Shown piece by piece: positions 41,661-48,336 of a stretch of 64,000 bases of DNA (its first letter is position 1; the number at the start of each line of letters is the position of its first letter). The notes under the pieces are model-generated. The model ran no database searches. It saw only the letters and a program-made list of their open reading frames with translations, and was not told the DNA's origin. The DNA comes from Exiguobacterium acetylicum. Lineage in GTDB: Bacteria; Bacillota; Bacilli; Exiguobacteriales; Exiguobacteriaceae. The position numbers and the translations under genes are program-made. The stretch is from positions 1,638,001 through 1,702,000 of the forward strand of contig NZ_CP082333.1 of the NCBI RefSeq assembly GCF_019890935.1. The letters run 5' to 3'.

Positions 41661-42260
41661 ATGCCAAAACAAGTCAATCACGAAGAACGCAAACGCCTCA
41701 TCGCGGAAGCGACGTGGCGCACGATTTCTCAAGTCGGTATTGAACAAGCCAGTGTTCGGACGATCGCCAAGGAAGCGGGACTCTCGCTGGGTGCTTTGCG
41801 GTATTACTTCACGACCCAGGACGAGTTGCTCCGCTTCTCGATGGACCTCGTTCAAGAGCGAGTCCAAGCACGCATCACAACCATTTTTGAGAAAGGAGGA
41901 ACTCCGGAAGAAACGTTATGTGACGTCTTACTTGAGGTCTTACCTTATGCACCCGAGCATCAGCTCGAGATGCAGGTCTGGTTTCAATTCATGATGTCCG
42001 CGTATACATCGCAAGCGGTGGAAAATCCGGATGATATCTACCATATGGTTCAAATACTGTTGACACAGATCCCGGACGGTACACTCCGAGCAGGTTTAGA
42101 CATTGAGCTTGAGAGTGAACGGCTCGCAGCACTCGTTGACGGGTTAGCCTTTCATGCTCTGTTTCGACCAGAACGATTACCAAAAGAACGCCTGCGTCAT
42201 GTGCTCGTCCATCACTTGAACGCCCTCTTCGTCCGTCCTTTAGCGATCGACGACAAATAA
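41661..42260 (+). CDS. TetR family transcriptional regulator
   Basis: The 199-residue protein has an N-terminal helix-turn-helix (about 10-56: 'IAEATWRTISQVGIEQASVRTIAKEAGLSLGALRYYF') and a BetI-like C-terminal ligand domain. No ribosome binding site stands before ATG 41661; an in-frame stop at 41646 excludes a longer form. A -10 element 6 bases before the ATG suggests a leaderless message. Its likely targets are itself and the divergent membrane protein. Confidence 0.85.
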   Translation: MPKQVNHEERKRLIAEATWRTISQVGIEQASVRTIAKEAGLSLGALRYYFTTQDELLRFSMDLVQERVQARITTIFEKGGTPEETLCDVLLEVLPYAPEHQLEMQVWFQFMMSAYTSQAVENPDDIYHMVQILLTQIPDGTLRAGLDIELESERLAALVDGLAFHALFRPERLPKERLRHVLVHHLNALFVRPLAIDDK

Positions 42261-42302
42261 CCCGCTGTTCCCTTTGCGCGCGAGGGAAACAGCGGGTTTT
42301 TC
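42261..42302. terminator. Bidirectional intrinsic terminator
   Basis: CCCGCTGTT-CCCT / AGGG-AACAGCGGG stem, TTTTT on the plus strand. It separates tetR from the convergent MATE gene. Confidence 0.85.
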
Positions 42303-43590
42303 ATCGTCTTGCCTCTACGAGAATCAACGAGACGGAGCGAATCAAGAAGAACGTCAAAAACGCTGCCCAGACGCCCTGATTTCCAAAAGTCGGTGTCAGC
42401 AGGAGGACGACCGCAAAACCAATGCCTGCTTGAATCATCGAATTTCGGACGGGTGTTGCTTCAACCCGTCCGGCAAAGATGCCTTCATAAATCATCGCCC
42501 AACCGGCGAGAAGCGGTAGGATGATGATCCAGAAGTAATAATCGCGCGCTGCGTCTAAGATCGCCTCTTCTGAAGTGAACAACTGAAGGAGCGGTGTTTC
42601 AAGGAATAGGAGCACTAGTGACCAGAAGACGACCGAGTAAAATCCGAACGTCCGTGCCAAACGGACACTCGTCCGGTATCCTGCCTGATCTTGATGCCCT
42701 CTCGCCCGACCAACGAGAACCGTTGACGCATGACCGAGTCCACCGAACCAGTACGAAATCAAATACTGGATTTGTAGCAGGATCGCGTTGGCTGCGAGGA
42801 CATCCGGTCCGAATTGTCCTCCAGCACGTGTGAACCAGCCAGTGACGAGTAGAAGGAAAATCGTACGAATGAACAAGTCACGATTGACTTGAAAGAATTG
42901 ACGGTACGCGTGCCACGCCGTCAAGGCACGCCATTCATCACGCGTCATCGCCAAATGACCACGGATCAGATACAGAGCACAGACGACGATGCTGATCTCC
43001 GCGATGACGGTCGCAACCGCAATTCCAGCAACACCGGCATCCAATCCGTAGACGAATCCGATATCGAGAACGACATTGACTCCTGTACTGAACAATTGGA
43101 CGAACAAGGCGTGCTTGACCTGACCGGTACCAATCAACCAGCCGAGTAACGCATAACCCATCAACACGAACGGTGCGCCGATCATCCGGTATGAGATATA
43201 CGTTTTGACTGCACCGAGCAAGTCAGCGGGTGGTGCAAGTAAGTACAGTCCGATTTGCTCGAGCGGCTGTCGGAATAACAGGATGAGCAGACCGATACAA
43301 GCTGCTAGAAACAGCGGTCGGTAGAGGGACGTCCGTAAGGCGTGCCCGTCATTCGCCCCACTTGCTTGGGCGCTGAATCCTGTCGTACTCACTTTTAAGA
43401 AACCGAACAACCAGTAAATCGTATTGAAGAAGACGGCTCCGACGGCGATGCCGCCGATCGCCCGCGGATCACCGGATTGACCGATGACGACGGTATCGGT
43501 CACACCAAGCAAGGGTGTCGCAATACTTGAGAGAATCAGCGGATACGCGAGTAACCAGTACGTTTTGTGCGTCGGTTGTGCGTTCACCAT
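42301..43590 (-). CDS. MATE family efflux transporter (DinF-like)
   Basis: The 429-residue protein has twelve predicted helices and the MATE start 'LLAYPLILSSIATPLLGVTDTVVIGQSGDP' plus 'VNVVLDIGFVYGLDAGVAGIAVATVIAE'. It exports cationic or amphipathic small molecules by H+ or Na+ antiport. Its ATG overlaps the end of the upstream ABC ATPase gene (43584-43590), so it is translationally coupled to the importer operon. In metallophore loci an exporter sits at this place; a role in exporting the chelator or surplus metal complex is inferred. Confidence 0.85.
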   Translation of the reverse strand: MVNAQPTHKTYWLLAYPLILSSIATPLLGVTDTVVIGQSGDPRAIGGIAVGAVFFNTIYWLFGFLKVSTTGFSAQASGANDGHALRTSLYRPLFLAACIGLLILLFRQPLEQIGLYLLAPPADLLGAVKTYISYRMIGAPFVLMGYALLGWLIGTGQVKHALFVQLFSTGVNVVLDIGFVYGLDAGVAGIAVATVIAEISIVVCALYLIRGHLAMTRDEWRALTAWHAYRQFFQVNRDLFIRTIFLLLVTGWFTRAGGQFGPDVLAANAILLQIQYLISYWFGGLGHASTVLVGRARGHQDQAGYRTSVRLARTFGFYSVVFWSLVLLFLETPLLQLFTSEEAILDAARDYYFWIIILPLLAGWAMIYEGIFAGRVEATPVRNSMIQAGIGFAVVLLLTPTFGNQGVWAAFLTFFLIRSVSLILVEARR

Positions 43591-44321
43591 GTTCCGGCCT
43601 CGACGAATCGTTGGGTATACGCACCACCTGATTCCAATCGATCAATCAAATCAACAGCACGACCGTCACGTAAGACGAGTGTTTCCGAACAGAGACGCCG
43701 GATGAAGTCGATATCATGCGAGATCAATACAAGACTGACACCAAGTGTCTGTTGCAAGCGTTCTAGTAGTTCGATGATCTGTGAGCGGGAGACGACATCA
43801 AGCCCCGTCGTCGGCTCATCCATCACAATGATGTCGGGTTCAATCGAAATCGCGCGGGCAATCGCGGCACGCTGAATTTGTCCCCCGCTCAATTGATAGG
43901 GCAATCGATCGAATAACTGTTCCTCGACCCCGACCGCAAGTGCGAGGGCAGTCATGAGATCCTCTTCTGACGTCGCTGGGAAATGCCGCAAGATCGGACG
44001 ATGCTGACGAAACGGTTCAAGAATCGATTCCCGCACCGTCCATTCTGGATTAAAGGAAGCGAGAGGATGTTGAAAGACGGCTTGAATAGCTCGTCGCTCG
44101 TTTCGTTGCCCACTCGGAAATACCTTTCCATGTAAGGAAATCAAACCATGTGTAGGTTTAAGCAGACCGAGGATCAATCGTCCAAGTGTCGTCTTGCCAC
44201 TCCCACTTTCCCCGATGATGCCAATTGACGCCTTTTTCCTAATGTGAAACGAGATATTCGACAAGAGGGACTGATCCTTTATCTGATAAGTAAGATCTGT
44301 TACGGATAAGACTGGTGACAT
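43584..44321 (-). CDS. Peptide/nickel-type ABC transporter ATPase (second)
   Basis: The 245-residue ATPase has Walker A GESGSGKTT (about 37-45), signature 'LSGGQIQRAAIARAI' and Walker B 'IIVMDEPTTGLD'. It is the OppF/NikE-type partner of the ATPase encoded just upstream, whose end it overlaps by 22 bases. GGAAGAG precedes the ATG. It provides energy for the importer with the two permeases and lipoprotein of the operon. Confidence 0.9.
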   Translation of the reverse strand: MSPVLSVTDLTYQIKDQSLLSNISFHIRKKASIGIIGESGSGKTTLGRLILGLLKPTHGLISLHGKVFPSGQRNERRAIQAVFQHPLASFNPEWTVRESILEPFRQHRPILRHFPATSEEDLMTALALAVGVEEQLFDRLPYQLSGGQIQRAAIARAISIEPDIIVMDEPTTGLDVVSRSQIIELLERLQQTLGVSLVLISHDIDFIRRLCSETLVLRDGRAVDLIDRLESGGAYTQRFVEAGTW

Positions 44322-45046
44322 GAACTCTTCCTTTCTTCCAGTGACGTACGATGTGCTTGCATCAAGGCAAGCGTAAACGGATGACGACTTTGCTCGATCA
44401 TCTGTGGTGTTCCCGTCTCGATGATTCGTCCATCCTGCATCAAGACGAGTTGCTGACCATAATGTAAGGCAGGTCCTAATTCGTGGGTGACGAACACAAT
44501 CGTTGCCCCGTACTGGTGTTGGTACTCAGTCAACCAGTCGAGTAAACGACGTGTCAAGACGGGATCGAGTGCCGTCGTTAATTCATCCGCTAAAATCAAC
44601 CGTGGTTTTAAGGCGACAGCAAACAGAATCGCAAACCGTTGTAATTGCCCACCGCTCAACTCTGCCGGATACCGATCCAACCAGGTCGGGTCCAACTCAA
44701 GTGTTCGCAAGACGTCATCGATATAAGGATGATCGATCTTGCGCCCATGTGCGCGATATGTATCCCGTAACATCTGACGCATCGTTAAAAACGGAAGAAA
44801 CGCATCGGTATACTGCTGCGGTATGTAACCGATATCGAGACCACGTCGCAGGGGTTCGTCCGAAATGACTTCTCCCCTCGACGACATCCCGTCCGGCAAT
44901 CGATCCAGTAACCGTTTCAGCAAGAGCGTCTTACCACTCCCGCTCGCTCCGACGAGACAAATGAATTGGTGAGATGGTAGCGATAGATTCACGTCATGCA
45001 GAAGGACGTGTTTCGCCCGAACGTGTAAGCTCCGAATCTGAATCAT
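44300..45046 (-). CDS. Peptide/nickel-type ABC transporter ATPase (first)
   Basis: The 248-residue OppD/NikD-type ATPase has Walker A GASGSGKTLL (about 33-42), signature 'LSGGQLQRFAILFAV' and 'LILADELTTALD' (Walker B with Leu instead of Pro). AAGGAGG lies 8 bases before ATG 45046. The gene starts 53 bases inside the permease gene upstream, in another frame. Confidence 0.9.
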   Translation of the reverse strand: MIQIRSLHVRAKHVLLHDVNLSLPSHQFICLVGASGSGKTLLLKRLLDRLPDGMSSRGEVISDEPLRRGLDIGYIPQQYTDAFLPFLTMRQMLRDTYRAHGRKIDHPYIDDVLRTLELDPTWLDRYPAELSGGQLQRFAILFAVALKPRLILADELTTALDPVLTRRLLDWLTEYQHQYGATIVFVTHELGPALHYGQQLVLMQDGRIIETGTPQMIEQSRHPFTLALMQAHRTSLEERKSSCHQSYP

Positions 45047-45821
45047 TTACGTGTCCTCCTTTTTTCTTCATCCATCGCGTCCATCCCATCGTCGCGACGA
45101 CGGTCAAGACGATGCACGCACCTGGCAAAAGCATGAGCCGGGGTGCCGAACTGAAATAGGGACGTCCTTCATTCAACATCGCTCCCCACTCTGGCAGTGG
45201 TGCTTGGACACCAAGCCCGATATAAGAGAACGCTGATAAGAATAAGATGACTTTGCCGACATCCAAACTCATTAACACGACGACTTGCCGGATGATGGGC
45301 GGTAAGATGTGGCGTCGTAAGATCATCCGGTCTGTTAACCCGTTGATGCGTGCCATGCTGATGTATGGCTTTTGCATCGTCTCGGTCACGAGTGTCTCAC
45401 TTAATCGCGCGTAGGAAATCCATTTGATGAGTAAAATCGCAAAGATCAAACTTTGAGGACTGGCACCAAATAATCCGGCGATGACAAGTGCTAGAACGGT
45501 GTCCGGAAAAATCACGAGACCATCTTCTAATCGATGAATCAAGCGCTTAAGACGTCCATCATAAAAACCGGCTAGACAACCAAGACAGGTACCGATGCAT
45601 GCTGTGAGCAATACCGTAAGTAGGCTGAAACCTAAGGATATCAAACCAGCTAAAAAAAGACGAGCTGCGAAATCTCGTCCTAAACCGTCTGTTCCGAGCC
45701 AATATTCGAATGAAACAGGCTCAAGTCTTTTAGCTACGTTTGTATTAAATGGATTAATATATACGGTATATGAAATAAATATCAGTAGACATCCTCCGAA
45801 AATGAGCCATTTTTTTTTCAT
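44994..45821 (-). CDS. Peptide/nickel-type ABC permease (OppC/NikC type)
   Basis: The 275-residue permease from MKKKWLIFGGCLLI has five or six helices and the EAA-type motif 'MQKPYISMARINGLTDRMILRRHILPP'. 'LGTDGLGRDFAARLFLAG' is the usual start of the periplasmic loop in DppC/NikC. ATG 45821 overlaps the stop of the first permease gene (ATGA) and has AAAGGA before it. An open frame up to 46091 is only shadow sequence. Confidence 0.9.
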   Translation of the reverse strand: MKKKWLIFGGCLLIFISYTVYINPFNTNVAKRLEPVSFEYWLGTDGLGRDFAARLFLAGLISLGFSLLTVLLTACIGTCLGCLAGFYDGRLKRLIHRLEDGLVIFPDTVLALVIAGLFGASPQSLIFAILLIKWISYARLSETLVTETMQKPYISMARINGLTDRMILRRHILPPIIRQVVVLMSLDVGKVILFLSAFSYIGLGVQAPLPEWGAMLNEGRPYFSSAPRLMLLPGACIVLTVVATMGWTRWMKKKGGHVNDSDSELTRSGETRPSA

Positions 45822-46753
45822 CTCGTTGTTCCTTTCTGCCAATCTGGTCGTAACGCCCGGTTTAACGACCGGATACCTTGATGCAAGACAAGAATGATGC
45901 CTGTCGTCAGCAAGATGTAGCCTTGGATCAGTGGGTAATCGCGTTGTAGAATCGCATCGACCATTAATTTTCCGACACCTGGATACGCGAACAGAACTTC
46001 GAGGACGACGACACCCCCGGCAAGACTGCCCAGCGTCAGACCGAACACGGACAGGACCGGTGGCACACTGCCACGTAACGCATAACGCCAAAGGATCGTT
46101 CGCTCGGATATCCCACGCATCCGTGCCAACTCGATGTACGGTTGGTTCAGTTCACGGCGTAGATTCAGTCGAATCAATGGAATATAAACGCTCGCAAGTG
46201 GAAAGCCGAGCGATAGAGCCGGGAGGACGAGTGACGTCATCCCTTCCCGTCCCATCACAGGTAACCACCCGAGACGGATGGCAAACAGATCGACGAGCAA
46301 CAGACCGATCCAAAAACCGGGCACGGCCGCTCCGCTCATGCTGACAAGGTGCGCGAGACGGACGACGCTTCGGCGCGTCGTCAAGGCGCTACCAATTCCT
46401 AGGGGTAAGGCGATCAATAAGGCAACCAAAATACCGCCAAGTGCCAGTTCCGCTGTCACGAGATAACTCTCTAACAACATCTCGATGACCGGTCGCCCCG
46501 TCTGTAACGAGTTTCCGAGACGGAAGGTAAGGATGTCTTGTAGCCAACGGACGTACTGGACGAGCATCGGCTGATCGTATCCTAATTCACGGCGCGCGGC
46601 CTCGATTTGTTCGGGCGTTGCTGATAATTCATCAATATTCAATAACGTCAAGACCGGATCACCCGGCAGTAACCGTAACAAGACAAAACAACTGAACGTG
46701 ATGAGTAGAGTGAATAGACTCAGCGATAGCAGTCGTTTGACGATCGAACGCAT
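45818..46753 (-). CDS. Peptide/nickel-type ABC permease (OppB/NikB type)
   Basis: The 311-residue permease starts MRSIVKRLLSLSLFTLLITF and has the DppB/NikB pattern 'LLPGDPVLTLL', 'YDQPMLVQYVRWLQDIL ... FRLGNSLQTGRPV' and 'QPYIELARMRGISERTILWRYALRGS' (EAA loop). ATG 46753 overlaps the stop of the lipoprotein gene (TGATG), with AGGTGA as binding site. Confidence 0.9.
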   Translation of the reverse strand: MRSIVKRLLSLSLFTLLITFSCFVLLRLLPGDPVLTLLNIDELSATPEQIEAARRELGYDQPMLVQYVRWLQDILTFRLGNSLQTGRPVIEMLLESYLVTAELALGGILVALLIALPLGIGSALTTRRSVVRLAHLVSMSGAAVPGFWIGLLLVDLFAIRLGWLPVMGREGMTSLVLPALSLGFPLASVYIPLIRLNLRRELNQPYIELARMRGISERTILWRYALRGSVPPVLSVFGLTLGSLAGGVVVLEVLFAYPGVGKLMVDAILQRDYPLIQGYILLTTGIILVLHQGIRSLNRALRPDWQKGTTR

Positions 46754-48270
46754 CAATCGGTCACCTGCAACGTGTTCGTGATCATGTAGTATTCACTCTT
46801 TTCCGTTTTCCATCCTTTGACGCGTTTGCTGTCATAGGCGACGAGTGTTGAAGGATAGAGCAAGAAGCTATTATAGCGTTTCTCATCGACATATCGCGCG
46901 ATTTGCTCCGCAAGCCGTGAACGTTCCTCGATCTGAATCGTTTCATTCAACGTCTCGATCTGTTTCGTCAACTTCGGATCCGCGACACGACTGAAGTTCA
47001 GTCCCCCGTTCGGATGATAGGTCGCGTTCAAATAATATCCAGCATCCCCACGCGGAGCTGTCAAATTGCTGTACGTCGCGATATCCCAGTCCCGGTTACT
47101 CGCCATGTATTCTTCTGGGACATCGATCTGTTTAATCGTGATCGCGACACCAATCTTTTTCGCGTCATCTTGAATGACTTGAGCGATCAACGGCAGGTCT
47201 GGTCGAGCCGCATACGTCAATAACGTCAGCTTTAAAGGACGACCGTCCTTTTGCATCCGTCCGTTTTGTTTTGTATAACCAGCTTGTTTGAGCCATTCCT
47301 CAGGCGTCTTCTGCTCTTGTTGCGGATAATTCGGAGCAAATGGGAATGACGATAGGAATGGACCACGTGCTGGCACCGCATATCCTTGGAGGACGTGATC
47401 GACGAGTTGCTGTCGATTGATTAAAGCATCCATTGCCTGTCGGACTTCAAGCGATTGCATCGGACCGTTCGCGACATTCATTGTCAACTGATGGACACGG
47501 AACGTATCCGTCGCTTGGACTGTCAACCCTTCAGACTTCAACTGCTTGATACTCTCGATTTCCGGTCGATAGACGATGTCCGCCTGTCCGGCACGCAAAG
47601 CGTTCGTCCGTGCGCCAGCATCTTCGTTGAAGACAAAATCAACGGAATCAAGTTTCGCTTGTTCTTGCCAATAGGACTTGAAACGTTTTAACTCGACTTT
47701 TGTTCCCGGAGCGAACCGCTCGACTTGGAACGGACCGGTTCCCATTGGTTCCTTCGTCACCCCGCTCGCCTTCGTGTCGATGATTGCTGTGTTCGGATTG
47801 ACGAGTTCCGAGATGAACTCTGGATATGTCGTCTTCGTTTGAATGAGCAGATCCGGTCCGTCCGTTTTAATCGTCTCGATGTTCAAGGCATTCTTGACAC
47901 CGGGATTTTCGTCAATCGAGCGTTCGAGAGACGATTTGACGGCTGCCGCATCAAGTTTTTTCCCGTTATGGAACGTCACGTCTTCCTGTAAGACGATCCG
48001 CCATGTTCGCTTTCCTTCGTACGACCATTTTTTCGCAAGCCACGGTTCGACCGTCAATCGTTCGTCATCAAGACGGACGAGCGTCTCCGTCACGCCTGCT
48101 CGAAGCGGAACATAACTGCTGTCGCGATGCGGATCGAGCGATTGTGTCGCGAAGTTATAGACGAACGTCAAATGGTTTTGCTCTTGTGGCGTATCAGAAG
48201 CAGCACAACCGGCAAGTGTCAAACCGAGGAAGACACTGCCGATGAGGCTCGCAGTTTTATATGTAGACAT
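46753..48270 (-). CDS. Peptide/nickel-type ABC substrate-binding lipoprotein
   Basis: The 505-residue lipoprotein has lipobox TLAGC (Cys22) and the SBP family 5 fold: 'LTFVYNFATQSLDPHRDSS', 'RTWRIVLQEDVTFHNGKKLDAAAVKSSLER', 'MGTGPFQVERFAPGTKVELKRFKSYW'. The family includes NikA, CntA and OppA. The Zur-like box in its promoter favours a metal or metal-chelator ligand over peptides. It is the first gene of the six-gene operon; AAGGTGGAG precedes the ATG. Confidence 0.85.
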   Translation of the reverse strand: MSTYKTASLIGSVFLGLTLAGCAASDTPQEQNHLTFVYNFATQSLDPHRDSSYVPLRAGVTETLVRLDDERLTVEPWLAKKWSYEGKRTWRIVLQEDVTFHNGKKLDAAAVKSSLERSIDENPGVKNALNIETIKTDGPDLLIQTKTTYPEFISELVNPNTAIIDTKASGVTKEPMGTGPFQVERFAPGTKVELKRFKSYWQEQAKLDSVDFVFNEDAGARTNALRAGQADIVYRPEIESIKQLKSEGLTVQATDTFRVHQLTMNVANGPMQSLEVRQAMDALINRQQLVDHVLQGYAVPARGPFLSSFPFAPNYPQQEQKTPEEWLKQAGYTKQNGRMQKDGRPLKLTLLTYAARPDLPLIAQVIQDDAKKIGVAITIKQIDVPEEYMASNRDWDIATYSNLTAPRGDAGYYLNATYHPNGGLNFSRVADPKLTKQIETLNETIQIEERSRLAEQIARYVDEKRYNSFLLYPSTLVAYDSKRVKGWKTEKSEYYMITNTLQVTD

Positions 48271-48287
48271 TGTTCTCCACCTTTAAT

Positions 48288-48302
48288 TCGGAGTAATTAC
48301 GT
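48288..48302. promoter_or_regulatory. Second, weaker Zur-like box
   Basis: TCGGAGTAATTACGT keeps 11 of 14 fixed positions of TCGTAAT-N-ATTACGA. It overlaps the expected start point of the ABC operon. Confidence 0.35.
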
Positions 48303-48307
48303 TTTAC

Positions 48308-48336
48308 ATCATATCGTAATGATTCCGATTTAACAA
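48308..48336 (-). promoter_or_regulatory. Promoter with Zur box in the spacer
   Basis: On the minus strand TTGTTA (48336-48331), 17-base spacer, TATGAT (48313-48308). The spacer contains 48314-48328, plus strand TCGTAATGATTCCGA, one mismatch from the 7-1-7 Zur box TCGTAAT-N-ATTACGA of Bacillus. Zinc-bound Zur would block RNA polymerase here. Confidence 0.7.

Follow-up and report, generated by a model that had tools for sequence, protein, structure and literature searches.

The operon described here raises the question of which metal it serves and in what form that metal is taken up, as its promoter carries a Zur-type box and yet its substrate-binding protein receives a curated nickel label. 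It lies in an Exiguobacterium genome of 3,392,023 bases in 3 contigs, and the window, meaning the whole stretch of 64,000 nucleotides that was analysed, is part of the main contig. The initial annotation had named six overlapping genes in a fixed order, and the reading frames together with the domain matches confirmed this: on the minus strand, each gene overlaps the next end to start. The first encodes a substrate-binding lipoprotein of the SBP_bac_5 family (46753..48270), which scored 684.7 bits with the NCBIfam model NF045468 Opp5A_nikA (cut-off 600) and is 98% identical to its relative in E. indicum and 72% to that in E. undae. It is followed by an Opp2B-like ABC permease (45818..46756; 331.5 bits against a cut-off of 350), an Opp2C-like permease (44994..45821; 268 bits against 300), a NikD-like ATPase far under the cut-off of its model (44300..45046), a NikE-like ATPase also under the cut-off (43584..44321) and a MATE-family exporter gene assigned by profile match and family comparison (42301..43590). 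A ribosome-binding site, AGGTGGAG, was read from the sequence at 48275..48282 on the minus strand. Between the MATE gene and a convergent TetR gene there is an inverted repeat (42259..42298), possibly a two-way terminator, which was read from the sequence and is absent from the computed scan.

The promoter was confirmed as TTGTTA-N17-TATGAT with a Zur-like box in the spacer (minus strand, 48336-48308). The -35 hexamer TTGTTA occupies 48331..48336 and the -10 hexamer TATGAT, 17 bases from it, 48308..48313. The promoter score of 9/12 is at chance level, with 5 such promoters found in the region against 6.1 expected, and the letters of both hexamers and the length of the spacer are unchanged in 9/9 genus orthologues. 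Motif scan and orthologue comparison placed box 1, TCGTAATGATTCCGA, at 48314..48328 within the spacer. The second, weaker copy claimed at the start point was also found: box 2 (48288..48302, motif scan) covers the expected start point and lies 26 bp from box 1. Against TCGTAATNATTACGA, which we take to be the Zur-box consensus, box 1 has 1 mismatch and box 2 has 3. The Fur and PerR consensuses fit less well, with 5 mismatches to box 1 and 7 to box 2. Control of the operon by Fur or PerR was rejected, as box 1 differs at 5 positions from either consensus.

The background of the box was also counted. The window holds 11 sites with at most 3 mismatches against 4.07 expected, and none of 100 shuffles reached 11. 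The whole genome holds no perfect site, 3 sites at 1 mismatch and 21 sites with at most 2 mismatches, against 9 with the reversed control motif. Of the 18 two-mismatch sites 12 were read, and 11 of these fall inside long reading frames. A lone box is thus weak evidence, and the argument has to rest on conservation. The frequency of two-mismatch sites and the chance-level promoter score are also the points in favour of a box-like sequence that arose by chance and has no part in Zur control, a reading taken up again below. The genome scan proposed earlier did yield further copies of the box, the other two 1-mismatch sites preceding a COG0523 GTPase gene and a flavin oxidoreductase gene. The GTPase is of the ZagA/ZigA type, with 450.3 bits to ZigA, below the cut-off of 600. 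The flavin oxidoreductase box is the sole exact core among the three 1-mismatch sites of the genome. Boxed flavin oxidoreductases of this kind (NAD_binding_9/Pyr_redox_2; L001 1543-2694, L174 4579-5733), with an exact-core Zur box, were seen in six genus genomes.

Absence of a zur gene would have spoken against the proposal. Three FUR-family genes were found in the genome, and one of them, L018, stands directly behind genes for an ABC ATPase and an ABC-3 permease, which is a znuC-znuB layout. L018 reaches no NCBIfam Zur cut-off (34.7 bits against 167 for PRK11639), and the Fur and PerR models also stay below cut-off; it is called Zur-type here from its znuC-znuB context. The znuC-znuB-zur operon is itself preceded by GCGTAATTATTCCGT with 3 mismatches, and the core of GCGTAATTATTCCGT is that of box 2 in 6/9 genus orthologues.

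For the comparison, the genus was defined as the 19 genomes grouped with the genus of the window within a class of 398 genomes. The family contains another genus (g2) that public records also name Exiguobacterium, with E. aurantiacum and two strains that have no species name; it was counted outside. The binding protein is present in 9/19 genus genomes at 70-100% identity, and the other ten have matches of at most 32% only. In all nine orthologues both boxes are found in the same promoter, 26 bp apart. Box 2 has 1-2 mismatches in the other eight, and in G014 the cores of both boxes are perfect. A search of the genus for the exact core gave 19 places in 11/19 genomes, and the reversed pattern was not found at all. 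When 17 of the 19 loci were read, 7 were found to precede ZagA-like genes and 6 a flavin oxidoreductase gene, while 2 are the pair at the G014 operon, 1 precedes a ZnuA gene (PF01297) and 1 has no called gene. Upstream of the start, many of the SBP_5 paralogues of the genus (most of L028-L046) have TGAAAATGATTATCA or something similar, which is near to the Fur box. The genus may accordingly possess two importers of the SBP_5 fold, one of Fur type and the other of Zur type.

Beyond the genus, relatives of the binding protein were found at E 1e-120 in 48/398 class genomes by a search that scores few candidates per genome. The 38 genomes with an importer at 55% identity or more are referred to as the clade. 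When 49 importers were chosen for a quick tree, 28 clade members and four named Paenibacillus sequences formed a branch of 32 with an SH-aLRT of 100. The promoter region scanned began 200 bases before the projected start and ended 60 bases after it. A box with at most 2 mismatches was found in 33/38 clade promoters, the other 5 missing this criterion, and one with at most 3 in 37/38; the reversed motif gave 0/38, and 0/20 promoters of paralogous SBP genes in the genus had a box with at most 2 mismatches. Among sister-group importers 10/16 promoters have such a box and 6/16 miss it. By a whole-locus scan, paired sites with at most 3 mismatches occur in 34/38 clade loci, 26-28 bp apart in 19 and 38-40 bp apart in 15. 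The box is therefore kept in orthologous promoters, where its loss would have told against the claim, in 9/9 cases in the genus and in 33/38 in the clade. With this conservation, and since neither the reversed motif nor the paralogue promoters gave a single hit, a chance sequence was rejected as extremely improbable.

Two of these relatives also place the importer among genes of known type. In G346 the gene order is flavin oxidoreductase, ZagA, importer, and that oxidoreductase is 34% identical to the one in the genome of the window. In G318, which has a sister-group importer, an S14-type ribosomal protein gene and ZagA are divergent from the importer. These neighbours are zinc-starvation genes.

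The metal was considered next to the binding protein itself. The NCBIfam nickel label was checked on the window protein alone, and it is not the only pointer to nickel: the nearest solved chain is 3t66, aligned over residues 29-503, SaNikA (4ofj) is another solved relative, and these relatives are named nickel-binding. The operon might thus be a nickel importer as annotated, its Zur box reflecting cross-regulation or the import of nickel when zinc is scarce. A urease, for which bacteria commonly import nickel, was however detected in 0/19 genus genomes and in 0/4 of the g2 genomes searched. Outside the genus, strong urease matches (at least 194 bits) occur in 14/29 genomes that carry the importer clade, which makes nickel possible there. 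Weak matches (at most 32 bits) in six more clade genomes, most of them above the low cut-off of 23 for this family, were taken for other amidohydrolases. The ZagA and S14-type neighbours also argue against nickel, as does a precedent: the accessible part of one report states that CntABCDF of S. aureus was first tied to cobalt and nickel and later shown to import zinc with staphylopine, and that cnt expression is up in zur and fur mutants (PMC5666155). Given this precedent and a genus without urease, zinc is favoured over nickel, and nickel import as the function of the operon is improbable. A zinc-chelate importer is the favoured reading despite the nickel label.

The comparison with the staphylopine system in the initial annotation held in part. 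The system CntKLM-CntABCDF-CntE, as far as the accessible part of the report describes it, shares an SBP_5-type ABC importer, an exporter and the Zur link with the operon (PMC5666155). A chelate-type importer is supported, and a MATE gene does follow it in the operon, although a dedicated role of this gene in metallophore export is made less likely by its solitary copies, described below. The comparison was refined for the binding protein, which scored 91.8 bits against the CntA model (cut-off 800) and fits NikA/Opp5A instead. Two further differences from the staphylopine system are that nothing of CntM or CntL type was matched in the 19 genus genomes and that a MATE protein takes the place of the MFS exporter. 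Membership in a staphylopine-type locus was rejected, since searches of the genus for the CntM and NAS families found neither. From the nickel importers of the NikA/Opp5A type, to which its binding protein belongs by NF045468 and by its solved relatives, the operon is set apart by its Zur boxes, its MATE gene in sixth place, the missing urease of the genus and the zinc-gene neighbours in two relatives. A NikA-type importer does not appear among the B. subtilis Zur targets in the accessible part of a review, which gives znuABC, ZinT, yciC, ribosomal paralogues and others (PMC6103462), nor in that of a B. anthracis Zur study (PMC6336718). Likewise, no Zur-controlled NikA/Opp5A importer was found in the open-licence PMC literature among the matches listed.

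Taken with the conserved boxes, these comparisons make it likely that the operon is a Zur-repressed zinc-chelate importer. Zinc-loaded Zur would bind both tandem boxes, in the spacer and at the start point, and block RNA polymerase. When zinc is short, Zur would leave and the six genes would be transcribed together. The lipoprotein and the ABC transporter would then import zinc complexed with a small amino-acid-type chelator of the opine, nicotianamine or histidine type. The MATE protein, which belongs to a family accompanying nicotianamine-type metallophore genes in several relatives, would probably export a chelator or its spent form. As Exiguobacterium has none of the known synthesis genes, the chelator would be acquired from the surroundings or produced by a pathway not yet recognised. 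The sequence itself shows the boxes and their conservation, the genes present, their co-occurrences and the gene families that are missing; that Zur represses the operon is inferred, as are the metal, the ligand and, above all, the cargo of the MATE protein.

The claim that synthesis genes are missing was borne out for the NAS and CntM families. NAS or CntL-type genes (PF03059) were found in 0/19 genus genomes; in the class there were matches in 41/398 genomes at E 0.001, of which 18 were over the cut-off. Many opine loci match PF03059 weakly, and a remote CntL could escape such a search. The CntM opine dehydrogenase (PF10100) was likewise found in 0/19 genus genomes. PF10100 had matched 0/14 control genomes, and when the search was repeated class-wide it gave matches in 52/398 genomes, 49 of them over the cut-off, showing that it works. 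NAS or CntM is present somewhere in 13 of the 38 clade genomes and neither is present in 25, and by coordinates none adjoins the clade importer in any of the 38. The chelator would so be either foreign, a common metabolite or the product of an unrecognised route. With the known synthesis families missing, a scavenging importer is the simplest reading.

The same absences, 0/19 in the genus for both families and 25/38 in the clade, would also be expected if zinc were imported with a common ligand, such as histidine or another metabolite, with no dedicated metallophore and the MATE protein as a passenger pump. A 2015 study by Lebrette reportedly tied nickel import in S. aureus to free histidine, going by its title, and this was counted for zinc-histidine. 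On the ligands of S. aureus NikA nothing useful was found in the open-licence PMC literature among the matches listed. A common ligand is a serious contender, to which we assign a little less than an even chance; the evidence that bears on it further is that of the MATE gene, given below.

Some relatives do carry a synthesis gene beside this type of importer. In four genomes (G363, G116, G305 and G146) a NAS-like gene, the importer and the MATE gene stand together. Each binding-protein gene is preceded by a box with 0 or 1 mismatch, and in G305 this box has the NAS-like gene upstream of it. None of the four is among the 52 class genomes matching CntM. These loci have the same importer and MATE families as the window operon and a Zur box in the same place. 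They differ in that the window operon has no NAS-like gene, and their binding proteins, 38-46% identical, fall outside the clade of the window. From such loci one may tentatively propose that Bacilli possess an unrecognised Zur-controlled class of zincophore systems without opine dehydrogenase, made up of a NAS-like gene, a NikA/Opp5A-type importer and a MATE gene, and that the large synthesis-free clade that includes Exiguobacterium scavenges chelators made by others; we hold this to be somewhat less probable than its opposite. A zincophore locus in Bacilli with NAS and MATE was not found in the open-licence PMC literature among the matches listed. Apart from this, the NAS-importer-MATE operon of G305 (L178) lies beside an apparent siderophore synthesis cluster, as read by eye, and G266 (L179) has a strong NAS match, while none of the reading frames in the 18 kb read matched the importer, MATE or CntM.

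Opine-type clusters have been surveyed before by way of CntM, and the accessible part of that study lists MFS, EamA and MatE exporters, MatE being the third type and reported for a fusobacterial cluster with FecCD importers (McFarlane 2020, PMC7438024). Some of those clusters share importers of the dipeptide/oligopeptide type, as far as this part of the study goes, but the MATE genes found here occur with SBP_5 importers, in Bacilli and mostly in genomes without CntM. A zincophore route that CntM-anchored surveys would overlook could be tested directly on the NAS-importer-MATE loci. In the opine-type loci of G389, G208, G143 and G093, CntM occurs with a NAS-like gene and EamA, and no MATE gene was called (the EamA label in G093 is by eye). 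A rule that MATE goes with nicotianamine loci and EamA with opine loci was considered and dropped, as G142, G164 and G354 have EamA and MATE genes that adjoin each other or flank one importer, and CntM, EamA and MATE fragments are found together in G071 (EamA was labelled by eye in G354 and in G071). MATE is accordingly not confined to nicotianamine-type loci. In Paenibacillus sp. 453mf, CntE occupies the exporter position (407.3 bits, cut-off 235).

A transporter clade whose window member gets a curated nickel label has a Zur-type box in 33 of 38 genomes, and the zinc reading, if true, reaches beyond this operon. Annotations in Exiguobacterium, Paenibacillus and their relatives should then change, surveys that score NikABCDE as nickel transport would overcount, and competition for zinc would extend to organisms that import chelators although no genes for making them are recognised there.

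The exporter was supported as a MATE protein and not an MFS protein. It is distinct from the other MATE protein of the genus (21-27% identity), and its family is narrow, with one member each in 44/398 class genomes (E 1e-45). Outside the genus the family has 29 members: 20 have an importer as neighbour, 4 lack an importer but show a Zur box ahead of the MATE gene or its operon (G346, G184, G166 and G318), and 5 have neither (G277, G106, G064, G054 and G103). Among the 20, 19 are beside an importer of the same family, five of them in g2, and 1 (G032) is beside a more distant SBP_5 importer; the 19 include G142, cut by a contig end, G164, with an EamA gene in between, and G071, which is fragmentary. 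The presence of an importer or a box in 24/29 non-genus genomes supports an origin of this family in metallophore export and, together with its narrow distribution, is unlike a random passenger, which weakens the case for a common ligand.

Within the genus the association is looser. The MATE protein is found at 62% identity or more in 15/19 genomes, and the importer in nine only. Six genomes (G004, G008, G010, G013, G015 and G016) have the MATE gene alone, with no importer and no box, the best site in the locus having 4-5 mismatches, and this persistence of a boxless MATE speaks for a common ligand. In five of the six the MATE gene has as its neighbour the PAS/chemoreceptor-like gene also found beside the window operon. 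A remnant of the second ATPase gene in G015 shows that this genome has lost the importer, and in G007 the end of the MATE gene remains and nothing else of it. The solitary label needs four changes inside the genus on the MATE tree, and importers with and without MATE are intermixed in the importer tree. In G018 (L204, L089, L124) the MATE gene has an in-frame TAG, whereas both boxes and the importer frames are otherwise intact; the second ATPase frame stops about 18 residues early. The solitary MATE genes and the G018 stop mean that the coupling of exporter and importer is not strict, and the MATE protein may serve another purpose in Exiguobacterium. We give about even chances to its being a chelator exporter.

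Since importer and exporter share an operon, a full metallophore cycle was also weighed, in which Exiguobacterium would make its own chelator from unlinked and unrecognised genes, export it by the MATE protein and re-import it with zinc. One candidate for synthesis would be the Zur-boxed flavin oxidoreductase, as its box has 1 mismatch and an exact core and its 34%-identity relative adjoins the importer in G346. Against this, the box-bearing oxidoreductase is also present in G012, which is without the importer. The Zur targets of C. glutamicum include, in the accessible part of the review, the yciC-oxidoreductase pair cg0794-cg0795 (PMC6103462), and this pair, alike by description, would suggest a general role linked to zinc. 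We regard a full cycle as rather unlikely, and the importer of zinc chelates made elsewhere is kept as the simplest reading.

Two minor observations concern MATE genes that stand alone. In G346 (L237 6934-8280) the solitary MATE gene lies behind a perfect Zur box and is followed by an ArsP_1-type permease gene. At five loci with a solitary MATE gene (L195, L198, L203, L205 and L206) an apparent short leader frame upstream runs into the start of the MATE gene or into the ribosome-binding site of that gene.
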